Shown piece after piece: positions 11,061-16,313 of a stretch of 64,000 nt of DNA (position 1 is the first letter of the stretch; every line of letters begins with the position of its first letter). The notes under the pieces are model-generated. The model saw only the letters and a list, made by a program, of their open reading frames with translations. It was not told the origin of the DNA and did not search any database. A program made the position numbers and the translations under genes. Source of the DNA: Engraulis encrasicolus (Eukaryota; Chordata; Actinopteri; Clupeiformes; Engraulidae); contig NC_085857.1 of the NCBI RefSeq assembly GCF_034702125.1, positions 55,454,714 through 55,518,713 on the forward strand, given 5' to 3'.

Positions 11061-11504
11061 TCTTCAAGTTTTCTTCCTGCTATGTCGTTCGCTCACTTTG
11101 CCGCGGCTGTCGTTGCGAGTAGAGTATGGTCATCATGTGCTCCGGTAAAGTGAAATATGGGGTCGGAATGTCCAAAAACACTGGATCTGTGGTCGCTGGT
11201 AAGTTGCACATTTCGTGAATGTTCTTTTTGAGCGAGTTAACGTGCACACGTGGATGTTAAACTTAGGCGATTTCTCTTTAGCAGTTCTCTCGCGTGGTTG
11301 ATGGCCGTTCTCCTCGTGCCCACACGTGTCCTCCTCATGGTGCGAGACAATTATTCCAAAGTTACTTAAAACACCTCAACGACTATAGGCATCTACCTGC
11401 CGCATTGAGTCACAATCAAGACTGTATTACGACACTAATACCTAGATACCCCCTTTATGAATTAATGTAATGGCTGGTTGCAACTTGGTGCCCCTGGGCC
11501 TTTT

Positions 11505-11623
11505 TGATGATCTGGTCCAGCGGCGCACTTGTGCACTTTGGGCACCATGTTTCAGTGCGGAACTAATGCGTCTCACGCACTGAGGCATGTACACCAAAGT
11601 GCACTGTTTGAGATCCAGCCATT
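11505..11623. mobile_element. Small palindromic MITE in host intron 1
   Basis: Degenerate inverted arms containing GCGCACTTGTGCACTTTGG and CAAAGTGCACTGTTTGAGAT. It is related to the cleaner copy at 16314-16436 and a diverged one at 55810-55990. Confidence 0.6.
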
Positions 11624-11690
11624 TCTCTTTCACCTCGGCATCAGCCTCATACGCGTAGCCTACGTGTGAACTTGAAGTACTTATGTGTTT

Positions 11691-11777
11691 GAGCTTGTGA
11701 TGATTATTCAACATTTCTGACACCTCGAATGAGCTACACAAGTAGCGTCTTGATTCCAAAGCACAAATCTGAAGCTC
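11691..11777 (+). ncRNA. C/D-box snoRNA-like copy 1
   Basis: Terminal stem GAGCT/AGCTC, C box TGATGA (GTGATGATT), internal CTGA (D'-like, ttCTGAcacc), ATGAGCT (C'-like) and D box CTGA at 11769-11772. It lies in host intron 1. The guide-like stretch before the D box is GATTCCAAAGCACAAAT. The target is not identified. Confidence 0.7.
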
Positions 11778-11995
11778 TTTCTTACACGTATTGATAACCT
11801 ACGTATTGATTTGCTGAGATCCATACAGACAAGCACAAACAAACTCTTATGGCAATTGTCAATGTGTGTGTGAAAAGCACAAAACAATCTAATTGTGTGT
11901 GTCTGTCTTTCTGTCAGATGGAAAATCCATTCTTGTCCCTGGGCTTCACCTTGAAGTATCAACTCAGCCAGGTATGTTCATGCATTAATTCTCTC

Positions 11996-12061
11996 TCACA
12001 CACACACACACACACACACACACACACACACACACACACACACACACACACACACACACAC
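11996..12061. repeat. (CA)n microsatellite, host intron 2
   Basis: Uninterrupted CA repeat between the exon 2 donor and snoRNA copy 2. Confidence 0.95.
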
Positions 12062-12062
12062 T

Positions 12063-12148
12063 GAGCTGGTGATGATTATTCAACATTTCTGACACCTCGA
12101 ATGAGCTACTGAAGTAGCACCTGATTACCAAGCTAAAATCTGAAGCTC
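12063..12148 (+). ncRNA. C/D-box snoRNA-like copy 2
   Basis: Stem GAGCT/AGCTC, C box TGATGA, D' CTGA, C'-like ATGAGCT and D box CTGA. It lies in host intron 2. The sequence before the D box is GATTACCAAGCTAAAAT. It directly follows a (CA)n tract. Confidence 0.75.
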
Positions 12149-12151
12149 TCT

Positions 12152-12254
12152 GACACACACACACACACACACACACACACACACACACACACACACACAC
12201 ACACACACACACACACACACACACACACACACACACACACACACACACACACAC
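12152..12254. repeat. (CA)n microsatellite, host intron 2
   Basis: About 100 bp of CA repeat directly after snoRNA copy 2 and before the exon 3 acceptor. Confidence 0.95.
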
Positions 12255-12452
12255 CTGCTTGTGTTAAAACTAATTAGAGTTCTTGCTGTGTGTTTGTGCA
12301 GCAGATGGTCTGCAGCAGTGGCCTGGGCGTGCCTCACCTTGGAGTAGCAACTGATCTGTAAGTACACACACACACACACGTTTTTTAATTTTCACACAGA
12401 CACGCACGCACACATGCGTTTGTTCATTTTCTTTCAAACATACACACCCTCT

Positions 12453-12538
12453 GAGCTGGTGATGATACTGTAACCTTTCTGACACCTCTTCTGAGTTGCT
12501 CTAGCAGCACCTGATTGGCAATCACACATCTGAAGCTC
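12453..12538 (+). ncRNA. C/D-box snoRNA-like copy 3
   Basis: Same architecture in host intron 3, but with different guide-like stretches: GATACTGTAACCTTT before D' and GATTGGCAATCACACAT before D. With copy 4 it forms a separate subfamily. Confidence 0.75.
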
Positions 12539-12727
12539 TTACATATCCAGTATGTGTGCAGGTAGTGATGCATACAAAACCTGCGCACCAACTTCTGTGT
12601 GTGTCTGTGTGTCTGTGTGTCTGTGTGTCTGTGTGTCTGTGTGTGTTTCCAGCTAGTGTGGACCCTGGTGTGGATGTCACACAACCAGGTACGTACAGTA
12701 TACATACATACATACATGTAATTTATT

Positions 12728-13406: not shown

Positions 13407-13492
13407 CAGCTGGTGATGATTATTTTACATTTCTGACACCTCGAATGAGCTACACAAGTAGCACCTGATTACCAAGCTAAAATCTGAAGCTC
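13407..13492 (+). ncRNA. C/D-box snoRNA-like copy 5
   Basis: Host intron 5, very close to the 5' splice site. The stem is CAGCT/AGCTC, losing the outer pair. C, D', C'-like and D boxes are intact. The D guide is of the copy-2 type. Confidence 0.7.
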
Positions 13493-13703
13493 TTACACAC
13501 TTAATACACACACTGAAGCTCATGCGTACTAGCTACTGAGGTGCTGTTTGTTTCACTAGTGTTTAACTTGTGTGTCCAGGTGGAGCAGCTAGTTTTGGAC
13601 CCTGGTGTGGACGTCACCAAAGAGTAGGAACTCCAGGTTTGTACATATTCATTAATTTACAAACACACACACACACACACACACACACACACACACACAC
13701 ACT

Positions 13704-13786
13704 GAGCTTGTGATTATTTTACATTTCTGACACCTCGAATGAGCTACTGAAGTAGCACTTGATTACCAAGCTAAAATCTGAAGCTC
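13704..13786 (+). ncRNA. C/D-box snoRNA-like copy 6 with damaged C box
   Basis: Host intron 6. A 3-nt deletion turns GTGATGATTATT into GTGATTATT, so the C box is no longer TGATGA, while stem, D' and D boxes remain. It is probably not assembled into a snoRNP; a decaying copy. Confidence 0.6.
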
Positions 13787-14049
13787 TTACACTTCATACA
13801 CACACTCGCGCACCTACTTTACTGAAGCTCACACATGCCCTTCTGAGAGTCTTGTCTGTCATTGGTGTTCTACTTGTAGATCTGAGATCTGATTGGCTGG
13901 TTTTGTCTTTCTGTCACAGGAGGAGACTGCTGATTGGTCTTCTGGCATCACGTCTGCAGGAAGTCACTGCTCATTGGTTGTAGTGGCTTGAAGACATGAC
14001 TTAAGTACGTATACAGACACACACACACACACACACACAGACACACTCT

Positions 14050-14135
14050 GAGCTGGTGATGATTATTTTATATTTCTGACACCTCGAATGAGCTACACAA
14101 GTAGCACCTGATTCTAAAGCACAAATCTGAAGCTC
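14050..14135 (+). ncRNA. C/D-box snoRNA-like copy 7
   Basis: Host intron 7. Stem and C, D', C'-like and D boxes are intact. The sequence before the D box is GATTCTAAAGCACAAAT, as in copies 1 and 9. Confidence 0.75.
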
Positions 14136-14447
14136 TTAACACTGTTACACACACACGCGTAACCAAACAGCTGATGACAAGCGTTTGATAAGCACTTGGC
14201 ATTCAAATCGTTTTTGGAGGAGAAAAAAAGCAGCACACGCACGCACACACCTGAAACAAACTTATACCTGCACCCTTTCCTAAGAAATGCTATATTTCAT
14301 GGTGATCTGATGGTGATGTTGCCTTCCTGTTACAGGTCGCAGCATATTGGGCGGTGGTCACCATGGCTACAGGAGGAGAGAAAGCTGATTGGCCAGTGGC
14401 AGAAGCAGCTCAGGTATGTACAGACACGCACGCGCGCACACTCACGC

Positions 14448-14511
14448 GCACACACACACACACACACACACACACACACACACACACACACACACACACA
14501 CACACACACAC
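14448..14511. repeat. (CA)n microsatellite, host intron 8
   Basis: CA repeat ending 2 bp before snoRNA copy 8. Similar shorter tracts are at 13667-13702 and 14019-14038. Confidence 0.95.
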
Positions 14512-14512
14512 T

Positions 14513-14598
14513 GAGCTTGTGATGATTATTTTACATTTCTGACACCTCGAATGAGCTACTGAAGTAGCACCTGATTACCAAGCTAAAATCTGAAGCTC
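14513..14598 (+). ncRNA. C/D-box snoRNA-like copy 8
   Basis: Host intron 8. Almost identical to copy 2 (D guide GATTACCAAGCTAAAAT), preceded by a (CA)n tract as copy 2 is. Confidence 0.75.
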
Positions 14599-14860
14599 TT
14601 ACACACTTAATACACACACACACACACACACACACCTGATTGAAGTTATGAAGTTCTTGTACACATGGGCCACTGAGACTCTTGTCTGTCATTAGTGTTT
14701 TGCTTTGAGATCTGATTGGCTGGTTTTGTTTTTGTGTTACAGGAGGAGACTGCTGATTGGTCTGCTGTCATCACGGCTACAGGAAGTCACTACTCATTGG
14801 TTGCCGTGGCTTGAAGACATGACTCGAGTACGTTTACATGCGCGCGCAGCTACACACACT

Positions 14861-14946
14861 GAGCTTGTGATGATTATTTAACATTTCTGACACCTCGAAT
14901 GATCTACACAAGTAGCACCTGATTCTAAAGCACAAATCTGAAGCTC
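14861..14946 (+). ncRNA. C/D-box snoRNA-like copy 9
   Basis: Host intron 9, 33 nt after the donor. Stem GAGCT/AGCTC, C box TGATGA and D box CTGA are intact. The C'-like box has ATGATCT instead of ATGAGCT. The D guide is of the copy-1/7 type. Confidence 0.72.
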
Positions 14947-16313
14947 TCTGACACACATTAGCACACACTTGCCTTTACGGCAGTCGTTCCTGAACCCGGC
15001 TGCGATACTGCCCCCTTTTGGGCCCCCTTGAATATTTACCCAATCACTGATGGCGTTTTTCTTCTGCTACAGAAACAGGAGGAGACTTCTGCCCATTGGT
15101 CAGTGCACATCGTGGCTACAGGAAGTGACTGCCGATTGGTCGACTGAAAGAGGACGAAAGTGCTATGTGGGGGGACTTCTGGTGTGCTGCTGTTACCTGT
15201 GTTACCATGGTAGTGTTGTGGAGATCCTGGATCCATGTGATGTCATGTGAATGCTCCTTTAGGAGACCTGTGACGAAGAATCGTGCAAGAGAGAAAGATA
15301 TCCCAAACTCTGCCCATCCAATGCAATGGAGTTTGCTCACATTCTGTCTCCTAAGGGGGCGTTGTCCCCTCTGAGGCTGTCCTCATGTTTTAGCGTATGT
15401 ATTGCATGCTAGTGCATTTGGCGCGTTGGTGCGACGCCTTTTGAAGTTAACACGTGCTCCTCAGGAGCAACGGTAAAGCGTTTTCATGCACTTTTGGCAC
15501 CTGACGAGGTTTGCACAGTTTTCCCGCCGTGTCTGCGATTTTCTTTTGCCACAGGGCATTTCTGTTGCTAAACGCAAATATGCTTTACTGTGCCCTAACC
15601 AAAACCATTCCTAAAACTAACCTGTCAGTAAAGTCATGTTTCTGCTGTTTTACTATTGCCGAGAACAGCAACATTTGGCAAATTTCTAGCTAAATTGTGC
15701 CTAAACCAAAACCATCCCCAAATCGAACCCGTCGTGGAGCACGCCTTAACTTGCAAAGGCATGTTGGACACACGCGATAGTGTTGCTTTTTGTGGCGTTT
15801 GCACAAGTGCGCTACCGCCATCTACAGCACTAAGGGAACTCAACCGACACCACATGGATACCGGAAAGGAACGAGACTGAAGTATCTTTCTCTCTTATAC
15901 GATTCTTTGCCTGCAGTTAGGAGACCTTTGGAGGCTTTAGGTTGAGAATAAATTGGCACTGTAGATGGTAGCAGCGCACATCTTCTGCAAGCCAAATGCC
16001 ACAGAAAGAGAAGAATGGGACAGCGCCCCCTTAGGAGACCGAACCTCAGCACGCTCCTTTGCATTGGGTGAGCCTTTGGTAGCCTAGACGCAGGACTCGA
16101 GACTGAAGTTTTGTTGCCTACAACTGAACTGTAAACATTATGATCAGTTGAACTCTTATTGTCAGCAAGTGTGATGTTCAGTTGAACCCTTGACTGAACT
16201 TCACCGCTGTTTTGCCGGCTATATATCACTACTGTACACTGTATATGCATTGACTTCAATGCTGAAGTGTAAACTTCACTACTGTATTATTATGTATGTG
16301 TAGTGCAAGTCAT

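Follow-up and report, generated by a model that had tools for sequence, protein, structure and literature searches.

We identified an array of the C/D-box small nucleolar RNA (snoRNA) SNORD60 in a stretch of 64,000 nucleotides (nt) of Engraulis encrasicolus DNA (assembly GCF_034702125.1, contig NC_085857.1, positions 55,454,714 to 55,518,713 of the forward strand), which is called the window below and to whose first letter all positions refer. Nine copies of SNORD60 are very probably present, one in each predicted intron of a likely non-coding host gene of ten exons, and the eight intact copies are predicted to guide methylation of 28S ribosomal RNA (rRNA). In a whole-window search all nine units matched the Rfam family SNORD60 (RF00271) with scores of 50.3-64.0 bits and E-values of 2.6e-7 to 5.4e-11, where the gathering score of the family is 42 bits, and every alignment spans the full model (1-83 of 83). 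No Rfam family other than RF00271 reached gathering level anywhere in the 64-kb window. A regular expression combining the stem, the C box and the D box found eight units on the + strand and none on the - strand of the window, and it found no match in 200 mononucleotide shuffles of the window.

The Rfam search had been proposed in a preliminary description of this DNA, made from its letters, which saw here a snoRNA host gene whose introns each carry one C/D snoRNA, all of the same family. That part is borne out by the nine RF00271 matches. The same description did not recognise the family and considered it possibly undescribed; an undescribed family is excluded by the scores given above, and the snoRNA is SNORD60 in 9/9 units. 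Other snoRNAs or small Cajal body RNAs in the introns were also considered and rejected, as every listed sub-threshold match to SCARNA families and to sno_ZL1 lies on the opposite strand with a score of 16-24 bits, where 48-65 bits would be needed to reach gathering level.

Antisense element and predicted 28S target

The antisense element TTTCTGACACCTC, which is 13 nt in length and adjoins the D' box, is identical in all nine copies, and 32 of the 85 alignment columns are variable overall. None of the 13 columns of the element varies, whereas upstream of the D box 8 of 13 do (p 0.0016 by Fisher's test, which treats columns as independent and leaves the relatedness of the copies uncorrected). 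Selection on the rRNA guide would give such a contrast. The element is also the longest invariant run of the alignment, which is a weaker result than the Fisher test, an equally long run being found in 732 of 20000 column shuffles.

The partner of the element was searched for with the pattern GAGGTGTCAGAAAAGTTACC, which consists of the complement GAGGTGTCAGAAA of the antisense element and seven further bases of 28S. This pattern is present in eight stretches of prokaryote genome contigs, and all eight are large subunit (LSU) rRNA by Rfam, six by the eukaryotic model and two by the archaeal model. The informative point is this specificity of the pattern for LSU rRNA (8/8 loci). The antisense element matches the LSU rRNA of two of the pattern-selected loci (L004 and L005) over 13 nt, and over 14 nt in copies 3 and 4. 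When one 20-nt guide was shuffled, 0/300 shuffles reached a 13-nt Watson-Crick match to the LSU rRNA of L004 and the longest match was 10 nt. In viral contigs a 35-base 28S pattern had no matches; the guide pattern was seen there in two stretches with identical surroundings and without SNORD60 by Rfam, and these were set aside as chance. In two of the eukaryotic LSU loci (L003 803-822 and L007 3626-3645) the conserved rRNA is lost about ten bases past the pattern, as an intron or an insertion at that point would give.

When the D' box is set at the ATGA or CTGA located two bases after CACCTC, the fifth nucleotide upstream of it pairs with the same G in 9/9 copies, and this count leads to the third base of GAGGUGUCAG for each of them. 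In chicken, the U60 site G3825 lies 22 nt before the snR38 site G3847 and the antisense element is on the D' side (PMC2653536); 22 bases on from the base predicted here, a G is present in 8/8 LSU sequences. The predicted target of human SNORD60 is 28S G4340 (PMC13369958), to which we infer that the predicted target here corresponds. An equivalent modification is mentioned for the archaeal RNA sR36, with sequence similarity described as too limited to infer common ancestry (PMC3511168).

SNORD60 copies and the predicted host gene

All nine copies are on the + strand, and one unit of 82-86 nt lies inside each intron. Copy 1 (11692..11777; RF00271 57.8 bits) is located in intron 1 (11199-11917), copy 2 (12064..12148; 56.9 bits) in intron 2 (11972-12304) and copy 3 (12454..12538; 50.3 bits), with the D' box CTGA, in intron 3 (12358-12652). 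Copy 4 (12835..12919; 54.6 bits), which is 98% identical to copy 3, is present in intron 4 (12689-13320), and copy 5 (13408..13492; 63.7 bits), a mosaic of two copy classes, in intron 5 (13366-13579). Copy 6 (13705..13786; 51.3 bits) in intron 6 (13637-13919) has a damaged C box. The last three are copy 7 (14051..14135; 64.0 bits) in intron 7 (14005-14335), copy 8 (14514..14598; 61.3 bits) in intron 8 (14414-14742) and copy 9 (14862..14946; 59.2 bits) in intron 9 (14828-15072).

The architecture of the units is largely as first described. The terminal stem GAGCT/AGCTC is paired in 44/45 cells over the nine copies, and so is the hairpin between D' and C' (44/45). The D box CTGA is found in 9/9 copies. 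The C box TGATGA, earlier assigned to every unit, is present in eight, and in copy 6 a deletion of 3 nt leaves TGATTA. Since this C box is damaged, eight copies, those with both C and D boxes intact, are predicted to be functional. Seven copies have ATGA as the D' box and the other two have CTGA. The motif ATGAGCT had been given for every unit and holds for six of the nine, the copies at 12454, 12835 and 14862 reading CTGAGTT, CTGAGCT and ATGATCT, respectively. An internal CTGA listed among the boxes is present as well, but it is part of the antisense element; it was rejected as the D' box because, by the duplex and by the fifth-nucleotide rule, D' is the ATGA/CTGA after CACCTC.

The host locus extends from about 11073 to 15965 on the + strand and consists, by sequence signals, of ten predicted exons and nine introns. 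The GT...AG borders are present in 9/9 introns, the donor +5 position is G in 8/9 and GTRNGT fits 7/9; the splicing of the host is a prediction from these signals, and it agrees with the ten exons and nine one-unit introns of the preliminary description. That description had ended the locus (11075..15300) earlier. The host region itself stands, but its last exon likely continues beyond 15300 as far as the AATAAA at 15947. Predicted exon 1 (11073..11198) has the donor CTG/GTAAGT and begins with C and pyrimidines (CTTCCT), resembling a 5' terminal oligopyrimidine (5'TOP) start, its transcription start being guessed from sequence. It is followed by exon 2 (11918..11971), exon 3 (12305..12357), for which an alternative acceptor is possible 3 nt upstream (NAGNAG), exon 4 (12653..12688), which aligns with exons 5 and 6, exon 5 (13321..13365), exon 6 (13580..13636), exon 7 (13920..14004), exon 8 (14336..14413) and exon 9 (14743..14827), all with GT-AG borders. 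Exon 9 is 85 nt in length, equal to exon 7, with which it shares a duplicated segment of 83% identity. The predicted last exon (15073..15965, with an approximate 3' end) has the acceptor TGCTACAG/AAA and the poly(A) signal AATAAA at 15947-15952, the sole AATAAA/ATTAAA within 15000-16400.

At the upstream end, ACTACAAGTCCCATAATGCATTGC (11027..11050, + strand), read directly in the sequence, resembles a ZNF143/Staf promoter element. The likely start TTTTCTTCCTGC at 11069-11080 contains a C with pyrimidines after it, a feature of 5'TOP genes. In zebrafish snoRNA hosts, starts of the 5'TOP/TCT type are used beside canonical ones (PMC6954239). The observed/expected ratio of CpG is 0.87-1.06 in five 250-base bins covering 10000-11249 and 0.22 at 11750-11999. 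The joined exons amount to 1512 nt, and their longest open reading frame (ORF) has 69 amino acids (aa); among 200 shuffles the median is 66 aa and the 95th percentile is 130 aa. A protein-coding host was rejected on account of this closeness to the shuffled median, and the host gene is likely non-coding.

Repeats are present around the gene. Positions 15312-15368 and 16017-16073 form an inverted repeat (82%) flanking the predicted 3' end of the host. Upstream of the host, 10878-10952 has an inverted copy at 9909-9998 (79%), about 1 kb further up. A short element at 16311-16439 matches itself inverted and has a 77% relative at 11522-11623 in host intron 1; it is likely a small DNA transposon.

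Origin of the array and alternative readings

A 499-column alignment of 83% identity joins 13659-14136, containing copy 6, exon 7 and copy 7, to 14468-14947, containing copy 8, exon 9 and copy 9. This alignment shows that the array grew through duplication of exon-intron units (cis-duplication), a process described as the source of almost all snoRNA paralogs in chicken (PMC2653536). A further match, of 66 columns at 77%, links exons 9 and 10. Copy 5 has the hairpin loop of copies 1, 7 and 9 and the D-guide region of copies 2, 6 and 8, and this mosaic suggests recombination between copies.

Since the duplicated segments of copies 6-9 include the exon and intron flanks, as in segmental duplication, it is extremely improbable that the units are insertions of a dispersed retroposon or mobile element which landed by chance in these introns. 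Intronic snoRNAs have been described as mobile through retrotransposition (PMC3511168), but here all nine units are in one orientation, one per intron, and no further copy was found outside the cluster on either strand of the 64 kb, by Rfam or by blastn searches started from four of the nine units. Within the window, the dispersed repeat that the preliminary description named as a refuting finding is thus not seen. More serious, though still unlikely, is the reading that most copies are decaying relics, with one or two processed and the others neutral by-products of a repeat-prone, microsatellite-rich gene. The loss of an intact C box in copy 6, the long CA or CT repeats in several introns, which favour unequal exchange, and the near-identity of copies 3 and 4 (98%) and of copies 2 and 8 (96%), as from recent duplication, would fit such decay, and so would the free variation of the D-guide region. 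However, despite a divergence of 22-28% between copies 3 and 4 and the other seven, all nine have the same antisense element and the same D box, the C box is intact in 8/9 and the GT-AG borders are kept in 9/9.

The variation upstream of the D box admits another reading. The D-guide region falls into three classes, each common to two to four copies, and with the D boxes intact these classes might be under selection as new guides that target additional RNAs. We compared all six distinct D-guide sequences with the LSU, small subunit and 5.8S rRNAs of L004 and L005, which come from other species than this DNA. The longest Watson-Crick matches are 7-9 nt, equalled by 90 to 299 of 300 shuffles, and with G-U pairs the longest are 11-12 nt, equalled by 39 to 160 of 300. 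As these matches are within chance for all six sequences, a second rRNA guide upstream of D was rejected, and we consider selected new guides to be very unlikely. The same slight credence is given to the wider scenario in which a single-copy rRNA guide became a ninefold array, its 28S guide was kept and the three classes of its second guide are gaining new targets. If true, the array would be the rRNA-guide counterpart of the SNORD115/116 arrays, caught mid-change.

Several observations weigh against the preferred reading, in which the nine units are SNORD60 copies and eight of them guide 28S methylation. In addition to the damaged C box of copy 6, the support from covariation is weak. The D'-C' hairpin has one two-sided change with pairing kept (G-C in copies 3 and 4 in place of the A-U of the other seven), and one pair with such a change was reached by 183/500 shuffles, while four of the five terminal-stem pairs are invariant. 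Folded as single sequences, the units have energies that do not stand out (z -2.94 to 0.68); the best z-score is that of copy 6, whose C box is damaged, and by our reading of the folds the terminal stem is part of the minimum-energy fold in only 6/9 copies. As the eight LSU loci were picked by a pattern containing the complement of the antisense element, their duplex with it does not by itself amount to independent proof. The distance from the snoRNA 3' end to the 3' splice site is 87-401 nt (median 140). The mammalian optimum for this distance is 70-80 nt, and because it is exceeded here, processing may be less efficient than at that optimum. Finally, a 2026 study in human cells reports that SNORD60 affects 28S maturation only minimally (PMC13369958).

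Comparison with known hosts and proposed mechanism

The human host of SNORD60, SNHG19/SHG60, has two exons with a lone SNORD60 in its single intron and is located between TRAF7 and RAB26 (PMC3499365). The snoRNA family is the same, and the human snoRNA likewise lies in an intron of a host with weak coding potential, which is polyadenylated (PMC3499365). The difference is in number, as ten predicted exons and nine copies are present here. A Pfam scan of 10 chosen ORFs of the window found C2H2 zinc fingers in three and nothing in seven, and neither TRAF7 nor RAB26 was recognised among those 10. The zinc-finger ORFs are upstream of the host on the - strand (902-1219, 3347-3592 and 4685-5035), the third scoring below the curated cut-off. 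Long ORFs at 27496-31446 (-) resemble retrotransposon gag-pol by eye.

The chicken U60 homologue, GGgCD63, is described with one isoform, as a C/D snoRNA with a D'-side antisense element, a 28S target and the yeast counterpart snR48 (PMC2653536). The D'-side element and the 28S target, predicted here, are common to both species, in contrast to the number of copies, one isoform as against nine copies. The largest chicken expansion noted in that account is of five U58 homologues, distributed over introns of RPL17 and of a second host, and it resembles the array in having paralogs across neighbouring introns with the guide kept and the remainder drifting (PMC2653536). Here, however, the nine copies are all in one predicted host, in which no other snoRNA was found. 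The predicted layout of the host is similar to that of gas5-type hosts, of which a chicken gas5-like gene is non-coding and 5'TOP with short exons and tandem intronic snoRNAs (PMC2653536), but those snoRNAs are different from one another whereas one family is present here. Copy numbers of C/D snoRNAs are higher outside placental mammals, for example four SNORD87 genes in zebrafish (PMC3349704). Since cis-duplication is common, and chicken U60 and human SNORD60 are single, the array is an unusual count from a usual process; paralogs within one vertebrate host are common and nine are many.

In the mammalian SNORD113-116 arrays a single C/D family is repeated many times from intron to intron; the guides are orphans and the loci are imprinted. 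The likeness to them drawn in the preliminary description holds for the arrangement, a one-family intron array in both. It does not extend to an orphan cluster, as SNORD60 is an rRNA guide, and none of the SNORD113-116 families reached gathering score in the window.

From these features we propose that RNA polymerase II would transcribe the host from the TOP-like start near 11073, and that the transcript would be spliced and would end after the AATAAA at 15947. The debranched introns would be trimmed down to the snoRNA, which C/D proteins would protect. TTTCTGACACCTC beside D' would then pair with GAGGUGUCAGAAA of 28S rRNA, and fibrillarin would 2'-O-methylate the base opposite the fifth nucleotide upstream of D', namely the conserved G in GAGGUGUCAG. 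Dosage may be the reason for nine copies, with the rRNA guide kept and the other guide drifting; we hold this with much less confidence than the array itself.

SNORD60 itself is well known and no new kind of system is revealed; only the ninefold array is unusual. Among the SNORD60 papers listed in a literature search, none has a title on a fish SNORD60 array. The array indicates that duplication of exon-intron units can raise to nine, within one dedicated host, the copies of a snoRNA described as single in human and in chicken, while its rRNA guide stays constant. It would provide a natural test of whether methylation at a single 28S position, homologous to human G4340, is set by copy number, and also of how the free guide region of a snoRNA evolves.

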